From positions 1-64,000 of the forward strand of contig JAJDCX010000087.1 in the NCBI GenBank assembly GCA_029260615.1: a stretch of 64,000 nt of DNA. Reading direction: 5' to 3'. The first letter of the stretch is position 1. Each line of letters starts with the position of its first letter. The translations under genes were made by a program, and so were the position numbers. The notes under the pieces were generated by a model. It was not told where the DNA came from. It searched no databases and saw nothing but the letters and a program-made list of their open reading frames with translations. Positions 41,860 to 51,642 of the stretch are shown one piece after another. Source of the stretch: Phycisphaeraceae bacterium. GTDB taxonomy: Bacteria > Planctomycetota > Phycisphaerae > Phycisphaerales > Phycisphaeraceae.

Positions 41860-43074
41860 ATGATGGAGAGGCCCAGAACCTTGGCGCTGTTTGTGGCAAC
41901 GGTTGTAATCCTGGCCTGGGTGCCTGTGTGGGGGGCGTCATCTGAGGGGACCGAGGAGATTAGTTTTGGCATGTCGACGTCCTTGACGGGTCCGGCGGCG
42001 CAGCTGGGGCTGAACATGCGCATCGGTGTCAGTGCGGCCTTTGACGAGGCAAACCGATCGGGTGGGGTCCATGGAAGGAAACTACGTCTGATCTCTCTGG
42101 ACGATGGGTATGAACCATCACGCACCGCACCCAACATGCATGAGTTGATCGATGTGCATGAGGTTCTTGCGGTGATCGGGAACGTGGGAACGCCCACCGC
42201 TGTTGCGGCTATCCCCATAGCAAACGCTAAGAAAACCGCCTTGTTCGGGGCTTACACGGGGGCCGGTGCACTGCGGAAGACACCAGCTGATCGGTATGTC
42301 ATCAACTACCGCGCGAGTTACGCCGAGGAGACGGCGGCGATGGTGGACGCGCTGGTGAACGAAGGCGGGGTGAGGGTCGATGAGATCGCGTTCTTCACGC
42401 AACGCGACGCCTACGGCGATGCGGGCTACATCGGCGGCATCACCGCCCTGAAGCGGCATGGGCTGACCGACGATACGTCTGTTGTACACGGCCGATACGA
42501 GCGGAACACCACGGCCGTGGAGAACGGCCTGGCGGATATCCTGGGGGTAAAGACGCCCGCCCGGGTGGTCATCATGGTCGGCGCGTATGAGCCGTGCGCG
42601 GCGTTTATCAAGCTCGCACGAGAGTTCGATTATCACCCGATCTTCTTGAATGTTTCTTTTGTCGGTTCCGCCCCGTTGTCCAGATCGCTGGGATCGGACG
42701 GCGACGGTGTGATCATCACGCAGGTCGTCCCGCATTTCCAGACCGATCTGCCAATCACGGAGGCCTACCGCGAAGCGATTGGGGGGTATGACGGCGGATC
42801 AGCCCCGTGCTTCGGATCGCTCGAGGGGTACATCGCGGGCAGGATCCTGATCCTCGCCCTGCAAGACATCTCTGAGATGCCCACGCGCGAGACGGTTATC
42901 GATGCGCTCGAGGGCATGGGCAAATTCGACATCGGCCTTGGGCATGAATTGGAACTTGGCAGCGGTAACCACCAGGCCTGTCACGGTGTGTGGCCCACGG
43001 TGATCCGCAACGGCCGGGTAGTCCCGTTTGCATGGTCCGAGTTGGCAAGCCTTGTGGGAGGTACGGGCCCGTGA
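41860..43074 (+). CDS. Periplasmic amino-acid-type binding protein (Peripla_BP_6 family), orphan
   Basis: About 404 aa. AGAGG lies a few nt before a double ATG at 41860/41863. A signal peptide (ALFVATVVILAWVPVWGAS) is followed by a type I periplasmic binding fold: FGMSTSLTGPAAQLGLNMRIG, LDDGYEPSRTAPNM, VLAVIGNVGTPTA, FFTQRDAYGDAGY, ARVVIMVGAYEPCAAFIK. This family normally delivers branched-chain amino acids, amides or urea to an ABC transporter. No permease or ATPase gene is nearby; instead the stop overlaps the start of a GGDEF-EAL gene, so it probably works as a ligand sensor. Codons prefer C/G third positions unlike the neighbours. Confidence 0.85.
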   Translation: MMERPRTLALFVATVVILAWVPVWGASSEGTEEISFGMSTSLTGPAAQLGLNMRIGVSAAFDEANRSGGVHGRKLRLISLDDGYEPSRTAPNMHELIDVHEVLAVIGNVGTPTAVAAIPIANAKKTALFGAYTGAGALRKTPADRYVINYRASYAEETAAMVDALVNEGGVRVDEIAFFTQRDAYGDAGYIGGITALKRHGLTDDTSVVHGRYERNTTAVENGLADILGVKTPARVVIMVGAYEPCAAFIKLAREFDYHPIFLNVSFVGSAPLSRSLGSDGDGVIITQVVPHFQTDLPITEAYREAIGGYDGGSAPCFGSLEGYIAGRILILALQDISEMPTRETVIDALEGMGKFDIGLGHELELGSGNHQACHGVWPTVIRNGRVVPFAWSELASLVGGTGP

Positions 43075-45608
43075 TCTTGAAGCCTCGCGAACACCGTGGT
43101 TCGGGGAGGTTTTCCAGGCTGGTCTGGACGCTCGCCTGCGTCGGGCTGGGTGCCGGCATGCTGGCGATGGGTATCCAGTTCAGGGCCCTGACGATCGTCG
43201 ATCGACAGTACGAATGGACGAAAGACACCGAAGAGCGGGCCGCCAGATCGCTTCAATCGCTTCGGCTGGAGCGTGCGGCTGTCTTCCGAGACATGGAGGC
43301 CCACATCGTGACCATTTCGGACGAGGACCGCCCCGAGCGGCGCGATCCGGCCAGCTTGAACCGGTTGGTTGCCCAGTGTGTCAGCGAGCTTGCCTTTCTT
43401 GACGGTGAGGAGGCGGCCACCCGTTACGCGGCGGTGACATTGGAGGAGGCGTTCGGACTTTTAGCCTTGTTCCACCAGGAACTCGAGCGGTTCGAGGTGG
43501 ACAGCAACCTCACGAACAGTCAGCTCCATGAGGCCTGGGAGGCCCTGCGGGCCGAGCTCGTTCATACGCGTGAAGCGACGGACAAGCTTGAGGGACGTCA
43601 GCGGCTGCAGCTGCAGTTGCTGCTGCGTCGATACCACAACGCCTCGGGGGCTGACGCGGCGGAGCTCGCATCCAGGTACATCTACGAGATGGAATCACTC
43701 AGGGAGCTGCGCACACTCGCGTCGGAGCTGACCGACTTGGCGCTGCTCGCCGAACGTCTTCACGGGGAAACCGAAATCGACCAGCTCGTCAGCCTGAAGG
43801 ACAACGAGATACGGCAGACGCTGATGCGCCTGAACCGTGCGACCCATGAGATGGCCGGGAGCGACCGTGAAACGCTCGCCTCACACATCGCCATGCTGGT
43901 GAAATCGATGTTCGGCGAGGGCGCGGTAGACGATGAGGCGCACCAGACCCTGTTGATCGGGGAGGGAGGCCTCTTCCGGCGCAAGTTAAAATCACTTTCA
44001 CTGGAAAGGGATGGGATACACCTCCGCAAGGACGTCATCACCCAGCTGAGCGAATGCCTGGAAGCCGAGCGCGCATTCAACCACGCGTTCGGTGTAGCGG
44101 TGGATGCCAACGCCATCCGCGCCGACAAGGTATTCCGTGCGGCTTGGCGGGACACCTTCATCTCGGGGGTCGCCGTGTCGGTCGTATTCATTATCCTTGC
44201 CTGGCGGCTGGCGGGTCTGGGGAGATCGGCCGAAGACGAACTGCGATCGAAGAACGATTCGCTAGAGGCGGCGATGGACGAGTTGGAGGTTTCCGCCACC
44301 ACGGACAAGTTGACCGGCTTGTCGAACCGGGCGGTCTTCCTGGACCGTCTGGGTAAAGCAATCAAGCGGTCGCGTCACGATGGGAGTCGCTACGCGGTGC
44401 TTTTCTTGGATTTCGACCGATTCAAGGTGGTCAATGACAGCCTGGGTCACAAGGTCGGCGACGCCCTGCTCTGTGATATCGCGAAGATCTTACGCCGGGT
44501 GTTACACGGATCGGACACGTTGGCGCGGTTTGGAGGCGACGAGTTCGTCGTCCTGCTGGGGGATCTGAAGAGTTGGGCAGACGCCGAGAAGAAGGCCGTG
44601 GAGCTATTGGATATCCTGGCCGCGCCCCATCAACTCGGCGACCACCTGATCGTCTCCACCGCCAGCATCGGTTTGGTGACTAATGAGCGTGTTTACGAGT
44701 ACCCCGGAGACATGATCCGTGACGCCGACGCGGCGATGTATCAGGCCAAGGAGAGCGGTAAGGCGCAGGTCGTCGTGTTTGACCGGGTGATGTATGCGAA
44801 GGCACTGGAGCGCCTCTCGCTGGAGACAGACCTGCGAACGGCCGTGACGACGGGCGACCAGTTCCGCCTGATGTACCAGCCGATTGTTGAATTGGAGACC
44901 GGTCGGGTCACGGGGTTTGAGGCGCTGATCCGCTGGGACCACCCCAACCATGGCGTGGTCAGCCCCGCGGAGTTCATCCCGATCGCGGAAGACACAGGCC
45001 TGATCATACAGATCGGCAATTGGGCTCTTGGGACCGCGGCCGCGCAGCTCACCGACTGGAAAAAGAGGCTGGGGCCGGGGTATCAGCTGAAAGTCAATGT
45101 CAACGTGTCCAAGCGGCAGCTGCAGGACCCGTCATTCATGGACGATGTCCTTGAATGCCAGCGTGACTATGGCCTGCAACCGGGAGACCTCTGTCTGGAA
45201 ATCACCGAGAGCACCATCGCCGATGACCGCAGCGATGTGATCATGCTGCTCCGCCAGCTGCGTGAGCTCGGGTTCCCGATCGCCATGGACGATTTTGGGA
45301 CCGGGGTGTCATCGCTAAGCACACTCCACGAGTACCCGATCGACGTGTTGAAGATCGATCAGGCCTTCATCCGCGTGCTTGATCGTGACCGATCGCTCCT
45401 GGCGGTGGTGATGTCGATCACCAACCTCGCGGAGAATCTGGGCATCAAGACCGTTGCGGAGGGTATTGAAACGGCCGACATCGTCGGGGCGCTGCAATCG
45501 ATCAACTGTACATGGGGGCAGGGTTATCACTTCGCAAGACCATTGTCGGCCTCCGACGCCGAGGCTTACATCCTCAATGATACTCAGCAGGGCACGGATG
45601 CCGCGTAG
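43071..45608 (+). CDS. Membrane GGDEF-EAL protein (c-di-GMP synthesis and breakdown)
   Basis: 845 aa from GTG 43071, chosen because it overlaps the previous stop by 4 nt (GTGA) with GGAGG 10 nt upstream. A first membrane helix (about 15-36) and a second (about 360-383) frame a large helical periplasmic domain of about 320 aa. Then GGDEF (488-492, intact) and EAL (617-619, FEALIRWDHPN) domains with NVNVSKRQLQD, EITEST, DDFGTG, KIDQAFI and AEGIET, so both activities look possible. The RxxD inhibitory site before GGDEF is absent (LHGSD). The partner binding protein probably docks on the periplasmic domain to tune c-di-GMP, and thereby exopolysaccharide output. Confidence 0.92.
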   Translation: MILKPREHRGSGRFSRLVWTLACVGLGAGMLAMGIQFRALTIVDRQYEWTKDTEERAARSLQSLRLERAAVFRDMEAHIVTISDEDRPERRDPASLNRLVAQCVSELAFLDGEEAATRYAAVTLEEAFGLLALFHQELERFEVDSNLTNSQLHEAWEALRAELVHTREATDKLEGRQRLQLQLLLRRYHNASGADAAELASRYIYEMESLRELRTLASELTDLALLAERLHGETEIDQLVSLKDNEIRQTLMRLNRATHEMAGSDRETLASHIAMLVKSMFGEGAVDDEAHQTLLIGEGGLFRRKLKSLSLERDGIHLRKDVITQLSECLEAERAFNHAFGVAVDANAIRADKVFRAAWRDTFISGVAVSVVFIILAWRLAGLGRSAEDELRSKNDSLEAAMDELEVSATTDKLTGLSNRAVFLDRLGKAIKRSRHDGSRYAVLFLDFDRFKVVNDSLGHKVGDALLCDIAKILRRVLHGSDTLARFGGDEFVVLLGDLKSWADAEKKAVELLDILAAPHQLGDHLIVSTASIGLVTNERVYEYPGDMIRDADAAMYQAKESGKAQVVVFDRVMYAKALERLSLETDLRTAVTTGDQFRLMYQPIVELETGRVTGFEALIRWDHPNHGVVSPAEFIPIAEDTGLIIQIGNWALGTAAAQLTDWKKRLGPGYQLKVNVNVSKRQLQDPSFMDDVLECQRDYGLQPGDLCLEITESTIADDRSDVIMLLRQLRELGFPIAMDDFGTGVSSLSTLHEYPIDVLKIDQAFIRVLDRDRSLLAVVMSITNLAENLGIKTVAEGIETADIVGALQSINCTWGQGYHFARPLSASDAEAYILNDTQQGTDAA

Positions 45609-49480: not shown

Positions 49481-49857
49481 GAAATATCCTCAGGCGTGAC
49501 TGAACCACCCTCCGTCAACAGTACCCGCAACGTGAGACTGCCTCAATATTCGGATCGGTGTGGCTCTTAGGGCTCGTTACCCCGAGTTTTCAAGGGATGG
49601 CTCAGATTTTCTGGCACTTTACTGGGATTTATCTGGTAATGACGGCGGGCACAGGTATAATCGTTCATCGAATGGGATAATCAAATTTTCGGCTATATTT
49701 TAGTTATCTTTCGGCCGTCGATTGGTGGCTGAAAGTGGTGAGGGGTATCCTTGGGTGCTGCCAGAACGTAGGTGGTATCGATGAGCGTAACCGTCAAATG
49801 GGTGGGGTTTGACCGGGCCTGAATCTGATGTGGCTTGGTTGGGAGGAGATTCTACTC
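49481..49857. promoter_or_regulatory. AT-rich upstream region of the FG-GAP protein gene
   Basis: 377 nt without a gene. A perfect TATAAT at 49656-49661 and AT-rich tracts to about 49715 suggest one or more promoters for the plus-strand gene at 49858, but no good -35 is aligned with it. It also serves the divergent HxH protein gene. Confidence 0.35.
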
Positions 49858-51642
49858 ATGCGGGTTCACCATCTGGGTTTTAAAGCGAAGCTATATGAGC
49901 ACACAGGGCTCATTTTTGCATTGACTACTTTGTCCGTGGCGTTGGTTGCCCCGGCACGGGCGGCGGACACGATCATTTTTACTGACATCACCGCCTCTGC
50001 GGGTGTGGGGCAGCCTGGTGTCCTTAACGAGTCGGTTGCCTGGGGTGATTACAACAACGACGGCGCACCTGACCTGTACCTGACCAACAACGGAGCGAAT
50101 AAACTCTTCCGCAACGATGGCGGGGGCGCGTTCACCGATGTGACCGCCACGACCGGCGTGGGGAATGCCGGCTTCAGCGTCGGCACCGCTTTTGGGGATA
50201 TGGATAACGACGGTGACTTGGACCTGTATGTCGTCAATTTCGGCATAGGCCCGGACGCCTTCTATCGAAACGACGGGCCCGTCGGTGTCGGCGGGGAGTA
50301 CCAGTTCACCGACGTCACGGCTAGTGCTGGTGTGACGAACGAGGACAGCAGCCGAGGTATGGCTCTGATCGACTACGACCGCGACGGGCTTCTGGATGTC
50401 TACGTCAACGCCATCGGCGACGATATTCTGTATCACAACGATGGGAACCTGCAGTTCTCCAATACCGCTGCCGCGGTCGGTATCACCGGGGTCAGCGGGC
50501 AGGGCGTAGGCGTGGTTGCTACCGATATCAATAACGACGGCTGGGTCGATTTGTTTACCGGCAACCGCTCGGGCCAGCCCAACCGATTGTTCATCAACAA
50601 CCAGGGCACTTTCATCGATGAAAGTGTCTCGGCGGGGATCGACAAGGTCGGCCTGGGCATGGGTGTGGCCTCCCTGGACTACGACAACGATCTGGACATG
50701 GATCTGGTCTGGACGACTTGGCCCGGCGCGACAACCAATCCCAACGCGTTTTATGAAAACACCTCCACGCCCGGCAACGTGAGCTTTACCGATGTGGCGG
50801 TTGCGTCGGGTACAACCGATCCCGGCGGCTGGGGCATCAGTACCAACGCTGGCGATATCGACAACGATGGCTGGATGGACTTTTTTGTGACCAACGGGTT
50901 CTCTGATACCACCACCCCCAACGTGCTTTTCCGCAACAAGGCCGACGGGACGTTTGAGGACATCACCGCGACGTTGCAGGGTGGGGCCGCATTCGATGGC
51001 AGGGGGGTCGCCTTTGCCGACATAGACGGCGACGGCGACCTGGATCTGGTGATAACCGGGGACGACACGGCCTCGACCCGGCTGTGGCGCAACGACTCGA
51101 TCCTCGAAGGCCATTGGGCCACGCTCAAACTCGTGGGGACCGATGGCAACCGCAGCGCGATCGGCGCACGGGTCGAGGTCACAACTAATTTGGGTACGAC
51201 TGTACAAGAGGTCAGCGGCGGCGCTGGGCGGGGCTCCTTCAATGACTTGCCACTAGAGTTTGGGCTCGGATCGGCGACCACGATCGATCAGATATTGATC
51301 CGTTGGACCAACGGCTTCACGCAAGTGGTTTCCGGGGCGGCGTTGGATCAGATCACGACCATCACCCAGGCGATCGCGGGCGACCTTAATGGTGATGGGT
51401 TCGTCGGGATCGCCGACCTGAACATCGTGCTGGCTAATTGGAACACCGATGGGACCGCCGACCCACGGGCGAATCCCAATGGTGATGGGTTGGTGGGGAT
51501 CGAGGACTTGAACTTTGTATTGGGCAACTGGAACGCCGGCACCCCGCCGCCTCCCGAGGCATTGGCCACGGTGCCCGAGCCTGCTTCTGTGGTGCTGCTG
51601 GGTGGTGCTGGCTTGGTATGGATCGGTCGGCGCAAGTCATAA
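49858..51642 (+). CDS. Secreted FG-GAP/ASPIC-UnbV protein with dockerin-like repeats and PEP-CTERM anchor
   Basis: 594 aa from the ATG at 49858 (GGGAGGAG ribosome site 9 nt upstream; an ATG at 49828 is less likely). A signal peptide ends PARAA. Seven or so FG-GAP/VCBS repeats follow, each with a calcium-loop DxDxDGxxD core (DYNNDGAPDLYL, DMDNDGDLDLYV, DYDRDGLLDVYV, DINNDGWVDLF and others), forming a beta-propeller. Then an ASPIC/UnbV domain (SAIGARVEVTT, LEFGLGSATTIDQILIRW), two EF-hand-like loops (NGDGFVGIADLN, NGDGLVGIEDLN) and a PEP-CTERM tail (VPEPAS, GRRKS). Probably a cell-surface adhesion or binding protein. Confidence 0.88.
   Translation: MRVHHLGFKAKLYEHTGLIFALTTLSVALVAPARAADTIIFTDITASAGVGQPGVLNESVAWGDYNNDGAPDLYLTNNGANKLFRNDGGGAFTDVTATTGVGNAGFSVGTAFGDMDNDGDLDLYVVNFGIGPDAFYRNDGPVGVGGEYQFTDVTASAGVTNEDSSRGMALIDYDRDGLLDVYVNAIGDDILYHNDGNLQFSNTAAAVGITGVSGQGVGVVATDINNDGWVDLFTGNRSGQPNRLFINNQGTFIDESVSAGIDKVGLGMGVASLDYDNDLDMDLVWTTWPGATTNPNAFYENTSTPGNVSFTDVAVASGTTDPGGWGISTNAGDIDNDGWMDFFVTNGFSDTTTPNVLFRNKADGTFEDITATLQGGAAFDGRGVAFADIDGDGDLDLVITGDDTASTRLWRNDSILEGHWATLKLVGTDGNRSAIGARVEVTTNLGTTVQEVSGGAGRGSFNDLPLEFGLGSATTIDQILIRWTNGFTQVVSGAALDQITTITQAIAGDLNGDGFVGIADLNIVLANWNTDGTADPRANPNGDGLVGIEDLNFVLGNWNAGTPPPPEALATVPEPASVVLLGGAGLVWIGRRKS

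Follow-up and report, generated by a model that had tools for sequence, protein, structure and literature searches.

The gene pair and its products

The window, a stretch of 64,000 nucleotides (nt) from contig JAJDCX010000087.1 (C87) of a Phycisphaeraceae bacterium (Planctomycetota; assembly GCA_029260615.1, a 3.76 Mb draft genome that is 93.75% complete), carries a gene for a periplasmic binding protein and, directly downstream, a gene for a predicted membrane receptor with GGDEF and EAL domains, which make and break cyclic dimeric GMP (c-di-GMP), respectively (Table 1). The frame of the binding protein starts with ATG at 41860, contains a second in-frame ATG at 41863, from which a protein of 403 amino acids would be made, and ends with the stop codon TGA at 43072-43074. 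The Pfam scan assigned its product to PF13458 (3e-53). The start codon of the partner gene, GTG at 43071, lies on the stop codon of the binding-protein gene and is preceded by a good ribosome-binding sequence, so that translational coupling of the two genes may reasonably be assumed from the sequence. The 4-nt overlap is kept in the corresponding locus L054 of a congener (genes 686-1897 / 1894-). A promoter and terminator scan gave no signal above chance.

The partner protein possesses the motifs GGDEF, EAL, the glutamate of EITES, DDFGTG, the lysine of LKID, AEGIE and GQG; the catalytic motifs of a diguanylate cyclase and of an EAL phosphodiesterase are thus both present. The product-inhibition site RxxD, which is located five residues before GGDEF, is lacking in the GGDEF domain of the window protein, where it reads HGSD; it reads SESD in L054 and RDTD in a congener protein with a different sensor. 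An earlier note on this DNA had described a GTGA overlap and a two-helix membrane protein with a large periplasmic domain and intact GGDEF and EAL domains. Reading of the frames confirmed the overlap, and hydropathy located the two helices on either side of about 325 periplasmic residues. The word "intact" applies to all of the catalytic motifs listed above but not to the inhibitory site.

Table 1 Features of the overlapping gene pair (positions in the window)
Feature	Position	Strand	Basis and remarks
Periplasmic binding protein gene	41860..43074	+	PF13458 (HAAT/LIV fold class); signal-peptide-like N-terminus; 404 amino acids
Shine-Dalgarno-like GGGAGGT	43056..43062	+	Within the binding-protein gene, about 9 nt upstream of the partner GTG; read directly
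GTGA start/stop overlap, 4 nt	43071..43074	+	Frames read
Membrane GGDEF-EAL receptor (predicted) gene	43071..45608	+	Open reading frame and Pfam; 845 amino acids
Transmembrane helix 1	43119..43175	+	Residues 17-35; hydropathy
Periplasmic all-helical sensor domain, TorS-like fold	43179..44150	+	Residues 37-360; model; without Pfam match
Transmembrane helix 2	44157..44213	+	Residues 363-381; hydropathy
Codon 399, putative graft junction	44265..44267	+	74% identity to a congener GGDEF-EAL protein begins after this point
GGDEF domain	44295..44765	+	Residues 409-565; active-site GGDEF intact; inhibitory RxxD replaced by HGSD
EAL phosphodiesterase domain	44829..45542	+	Residues 587-824; listed catalytic motifs intact

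The binding-protein clade, its outputs and its ligand pocket

Relatives of the window binding protein are encoded by 26 of 294 genomes of the phylum (E 1e-20), and none was found in the sampled members of the window's own family and order. Moreover, 40 binding-protein loci came out of a pattern-based scan across 85,000 species. The clade extends over at least eight phyla (Planctomycetota, Nitrospirota, Thermodesulfobacteriota, Myxococcota, Pseudomonadota, Bacteroidota, Verrucomicrobiota and Chlamydiota), with Legionella, Halomonas, Kiloniella and Methylophaga representing the Pseudomonadota; many of the loci are drafts binned from metagenomes and single phylum assignments may therefore be wrong. 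Because its presence is sporadic and 45-65% of the residues are identical across phyla, the distribution of the clade suggests horizontal spread. The closest solved structure is the orthologous 4kv7 (E 1e-129), a "probable leucine/isoleucine/valine-binding protein" from Rhodopirellula baltica. In another planctomycete, the gene downstream of the orthologue encodes a histidine kinase with a TorS-fold sensor (L032). A literature search for papers on 4kv7 returned only false matches to potassium channels, and no relevant paper was retrieved by pairing Peripla_BP_6 with receptors.

For the neighbourhood analysis, open reading frames (ORFs) were called in all loci and scanned with output-domain queries and Pfam, and a signalling gene was regarded as adjacent if it is located on the same strand within 150 bp. 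A signalling output is attached in 45 of the 63 clade members with usable flanks, the window being excluded: 40 adjoin a signalling gene, and in the other five the binding protein follows a protein kinase domain in the same chain. Among 146 other genes of 300-500 amino acids in the same loci, which served as a control, nine adjoin a signalling gene. According to Pfam, the outputs comprise plain and hybrid histidine kinases, histidine kinases with a HisKA_3 domain, methyl-accepting chemotaxis proteins (MCPs), guanylate/adenylate cyclases, GGDEF-EAL proteins and fusions of a protein kinase with the periplasmic binding protein (Pkinase-PBP). GGDEF-EAL outputs occur in the window, in L054 and in two Methylophaga loci. 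In Chlamydiota and Verrucomicrobiota, genes for cyclases and response regulators are located upstream of the binding-protein gene.

Several architectures were observed in the course of this survey. The planctomycete fusions, with an N-terminal Ser/Thr kinase and a C-terminal clade binding protein, are apparently single-chain receptors (L038 6495-8873, L039 8482-11040, L040 7350-9770, L041 8147-10525 and L047 6747-9173). In Legionella, an operon encodes the clade binding protein, a hybrid histidine kinase, a small response regulator and a protein composed of a receiver and a class III nucleotide cyclase (L065-L070, L074, L075 and L078; e.g. L069 7896-14099). Nitrospirota and one member of the Saprospiraceae possess, directly upstream of the binding protein, a dCache protein of about 710 amino acids whose C-terminal part contains several membrane helices and in which no output was recognised (L062 1587-3719, L064 5864-7996, L072 5811-7949 and L076 5826-7958). 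In a Halomonas genome, the gene of the chemoreceptor partner is apparently split by an ORF inserted on the opposite strand (L080 9202-12175).

An alignment of the clade with LivJ and LivK from E. coli pointed to a rebuilt pocket. Glu226, Thr102 and Asp121 of LivK, the residues that anchor the amino acid, are replaced by Ser (66/66), Gly (66/66) and Tyr (60 proteins), respectively, and at the Thr102 site a Thr, Ser or Ala sits one residue earlier in the clade. Furthermore, clade-specific residues, among them N148, R150, E156, Q180 and D182, do not vary within the 54 proteins of the main clade. The loss of the anchoring residues and the invariance of the clade-specific ones speak for a single conserved ligand that is not a branched-chain amino acid. 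A branched-chain amino acid was considered as the ligand of the window protein and, given the replaced anchors, it is probably not the one that is bound. The label "branched-chain-amino-acid-type" is therefore justified for the PF13458 fold but not for the anchoring residues of LivJ and LivK, which are replaced throughout the clade.

The sensor domain and the origin of the pair

No Pfam model matched residues 1-400 of the partner protein. According to hydropathy, the partners of the TorS type all carry helices near residues 12-35 and 355-380. A profile iteration seeded with ten sensors recruited the sensors of kinases, chemoreceptors and the Methylophaga GGDEF-EAL proteins, and the reversed sequences that were used as a control did no better than E 0.07. 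The motif DxLxxLKDN is common to the sensor alignment and corresponds to residues 237-245 of the window protein. In profile-profile comparisons, the seed group matched the Legionella sensors with E 1.5e-8, the Halomonas-type sensors with E 3.9e-8 and the pooled gammaproteobacterial sensors with E 2.1e-15 (98.5%). The Methylophaga sensor alone gave a weak match to the seed profile (13.5%) that became significant only when pooled or after iteration, and the identity of the window sensor to its kinase relatives is only about 20%. The sensors of the other GGDEF-EAL proteins in the genus did not match the family. The same holds for the larger sensors (about 450 amino acids) of most planctomycete MCP partners, which lie outside the family; the clade thus has at least two kinds of partner. 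One partner from the sensor family, 392 amino acids in length, ends after the second membrane helix without an output domain (L033 7646-8824).

The AlphaFold2 model of the window sensor (mean predicted local distance difference test score, pLDDT, of 84) had its best match in TorS of the TorS-TorT complexes, both in Foldseek (E 2.6e-4) and in VIA-align (Z 17.6, root-mean-square deviation 2.9, 262/273 residues). TorS was also ranked first by a second model that was built from gammaproteobacterial partners only (Z 18.6, 16-17% identity). The margin is modest because helical bundles gave high background scores of up to about 15 in these comparisons. Among the helical sensors that rank near the top of the match list, however, only TorS has been solved bound to a binding protein. 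A search of the PDB sequences with the sensor profile produced only coiled-coil noise, and the match to TorS came from the structure model alone. Moreover, the distances among the binding proteins correlate with those among the sensors (r 0.70; 0/5000 permutations).

The two genes are also found together in a congener (G294, locus L054), apparently the Phycisphaeraceae isolate OFTM29; the two-part receptor of the earlier note, which would have been refuted by the absence of the pair from all other genomes, thus withstands this check. In the binding-protein tree, the protein from the window groups with that from L054, and the two are sister to two planctomycete proteins coupled to histidine kinases (support 95/86) and are nested in a histidine kinase-coupled group. 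The coupling to GGDEF-EAL outputs has probably arisen at least twice because the Methylophaga proteins are located elsewhere in this tree. The closest relatives of the window GGDEF-EAL output belong to the same genus and carry other sensors. In the congener G295, an output that is 74% identical from residue 399 onward is encoded beside the same acyltransferase gene and is preceded by dCache_3 and PAS domains; neither this protein nor the stretch that precedes it gave a binding-protein match, and the genome gave no match to the sensor. Since nearly the same output thus occurs with a dCache-PAS sensor and no binding protein, a swap of the front end at one locus, with the binding protein and the sensor moving as a cassette, would be the simplest reading, and the order of events is what we infer from it. 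In the congeners G296 and G297, the slot is filled by unrelated genes, which in G297 were recognised by eye as similar to a CdaA-type diadenylate cyclase and an MgtE-type transporter (L109 5679-6923 and 6946-8316). The genus also possesses its own, genus-specific family of GGDEF-EAL outputs that are 65-80% identical and follow quite different N-terminal sensors (L114, L128-L133, L054 and window 44271-45605), apparently a recent radiation by sensor swapping.

A candidate two-part receptor with c-di-GMP output

We consider it quite probable that the gene pair encodes a two-part receptor in which the ligand-loaded binding protein docks on the TorS-fold sensor and shifts the turnover of c-di-GMP, and in which this front end was joined to an output that is resident in the genus. 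The secreted binding protein would capture a small ligand in the periplasm and, in the conformation that depends on this ligand, dock on the partner's helical sensor domain. The two membrane helices and a short coiled linker might carry the resulting movement on to the GGDEF-EAL module, whose balance between making and breaking c-di-GMP would shift; docking, ligand dependence and the direction of the enzymatic switch are steps that we infer. The front end, which elsewhere is mostly found on histidine kinases, may have been joined to the GGDEF-EAL output within the genus. A two-part receptor had been put forward in the earlier note, and it is well supported comparatively by the adjacency or fusion to outputs, by the shared sensor family and by the TorS fold in two separately built models.

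By analogy, the system is most likely a TorT/TorS-like receptor with c-di-GMP output that functionally resembles NspS-MbaA and ScrB-ScrC. NspS is a polyamine-type, PotD-like binding protein. In the polyamine-sensing NspS-MbaA system of Vibrio cholerae, the binding protein tunes c-di-GMP via the periplasmic domain of its GGDEF-EAL partner, and in Vibrio parahaemolyticus the periplasmic binding protein ScrB switches the dual-function GGDEF-EAL enzyme ScrC (PMC8079147; PMC10269520). Pairs of a binding protein and a GGDEF-EAL protein have thus been characterised, which corrects the earlier note, to which no characterised pair of exactly this make-up was known. As in the window, the nspS gene is located directly upstream of a gene for a membrane GGDEF-EAL protein. 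However, the window binding protein belongs to PF13458 and matches no SBP_bac family, and the motifs of MbaA are SGDEF and EVL. The scr operon, which was compared by its description, contains the signal-making ScrA, whereas no such third gene is co-directional with the window pair. The E. coli TorT-TorS system shares the all-helical sensor fold solved together with a binding protein, but TorT belongs to PF00532 (Peripla_BP_1) and TorS to PF21689 with a kinase output, and the window proteins match neither model. The window pair is likened to TorT-TorS rather than classified as a member because sequence homology to TorS is weak or undetectable and the Pfam TorS model is unmatched. Solute-binding protein (SBP)-driven receptors are widespread (PMC11113362). 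In mycobacteria, protein kinase G is reported to be controlled by a binding protein (PMC6069109); the Pkinase-PBP fusions are analogous, but there the two parts form one chain, whereas the mycobacterial proteins are separate.

Several observations weigh against the two-part receptor. The exact pair is known from a single genus, in which two genomes have it; four congeners gave no match, but one of these genomes is only 79% complete. In 18 of the 63 clade members, no output was detected next to the binding protein, although in several of them the partner is disrupted or lacks a recognised output domain. The sensor does not match the Pfam model PF21689 (TorS_sensor_domain) at a threshold of E 0.1, a model which recognises E. 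coli TorS itself with 2.6e-89; direct sequence homology to E. coli TorS was tried as an assignment and was undetectable in one profile comparison and weak in another (E 0.0016, 16% probability). The correlation of the distances may reflect shared ancestry. In P. aeruginosa, neighbouring SBPs and kinases did not interact when they were tested (PMC11113362). Finally, McpS-type helical domains, which have a related fold and bind their ligands directly, also score Z ~12-13 (McpS with malate/succinate). The TorS-fold domain might thus sense the ligand directly, like the helical bimodular domains of the McpS type, and the binding protein would be a delivery or accessory factor. We regard this as unlikely because the TorS-TorT complex scores clearly higher than McpS and because the genes for the two proteins stay together, overlapping or side by side, with correlated distances between the proteins.

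Slightly less likely still is an orphan uptake protein that serves a transporter elsewhere, its place beside the GGDEF-EAL gene being incidental or only co-regulatory. Members of PF13458 mostly take up branched-chain amino acids (PMC9602780), and a permease could be encoded in the roughly 6% of the genome that may be missing. However, the available 93.75% contains PF13458 only once, namely in the window protein, and no match to the LivH/LivM permease family PF02653, for which the control search was positive in 12/14 genomes. The earlier observation that the locus lacks transporter genes thus holds genome-wide, and a cognate permease elsewhere, which would have spoken for uptake, was looked for without finding one of the LIV type. 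LivH/LivM-like ORFs are present in only one clade locus (L061), where they are divergent from the clade member and have their own binding protein. Furthermore, clade members from different phyla are coupled to signalling outputs, including the five kinase fusions, and the amino acid-anchoring residues have been lost.

The genes flanking the pair encode a family 2 glycosyltransferase, a flippase-like protein, a WcaF-like acyltransferase, an HpnA-like epimerase and a PEP-CTERM-type glycosyltransferase, and their order is largely conserved in the genus. The flanks thus look like genes for a sugar polymer. The genes next to the pair are on the opposite strand, and the slot that the pair occupies varies among the congeners. 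Control of the matrix by the pair is plausible from general c-di-GMP biology, but it is unsupported beyond proximity because the slot is variable, lies between opposite-strand genes and is filled otherwise in two congeners. The proposal of the earlier note, a nutrient sensor for branched-chain amino acids that controls the exopolysaccharide of the neighbouring genes, would be in line with PF13458 membership and with these flanks, but it is the least likely of the alternatives given the replaced anchoring residues and the other genes that congeners hold in the slot. The window also encodes, at 49828-51642, an FG-GAP/UnbV_ASPIC protein with dockerin-like GDGFVGIEDLN repeats and a PEP-CTERM-like tail.

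According to a review of c-di-GMP signalling, SBP_bac_3 was the only PBP-clan domain of GGDEF, EAL and HD-GYP proteins that had been studied (PMC8846402). The novelty lies in the binding-protein family, in an unnamed sensor family that is common to several outputs and in the apparent front-end swap. Few binding-protein-driven c-di-GMP receptors have been characterised, and the locus adds another binding-protein family to them. Moreover, the TorS-fold partner suggests how docking could work, and on one output lineage the front end has apparently been swapped against a dCache-PAS sensor. More tentatively, and with slightly more doubt than confidence, we propose that the cassette of a PF13458 protein with a rebuilt pocket and a TorS-fold sensor outside Pfam detects one conserved signal other than an amino acid in at least eight phyla, where it would have become coupled to GGDEF-EAL proteins at least twice independently, besides its coupling to histidine kinases, chemoreceptors, nucleotide cyclases and Ser/Thr kinases. 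Because the pocket is conserved in the clade and a crystal structure of an orthologue exists (4kv7), the identification of one ligand could make it possible to assign a signal to kinases, chemoreceptors and c-di-GMP enzymes from many phyla, those of Legionella, Halomonas and the Nitrospirota among them.

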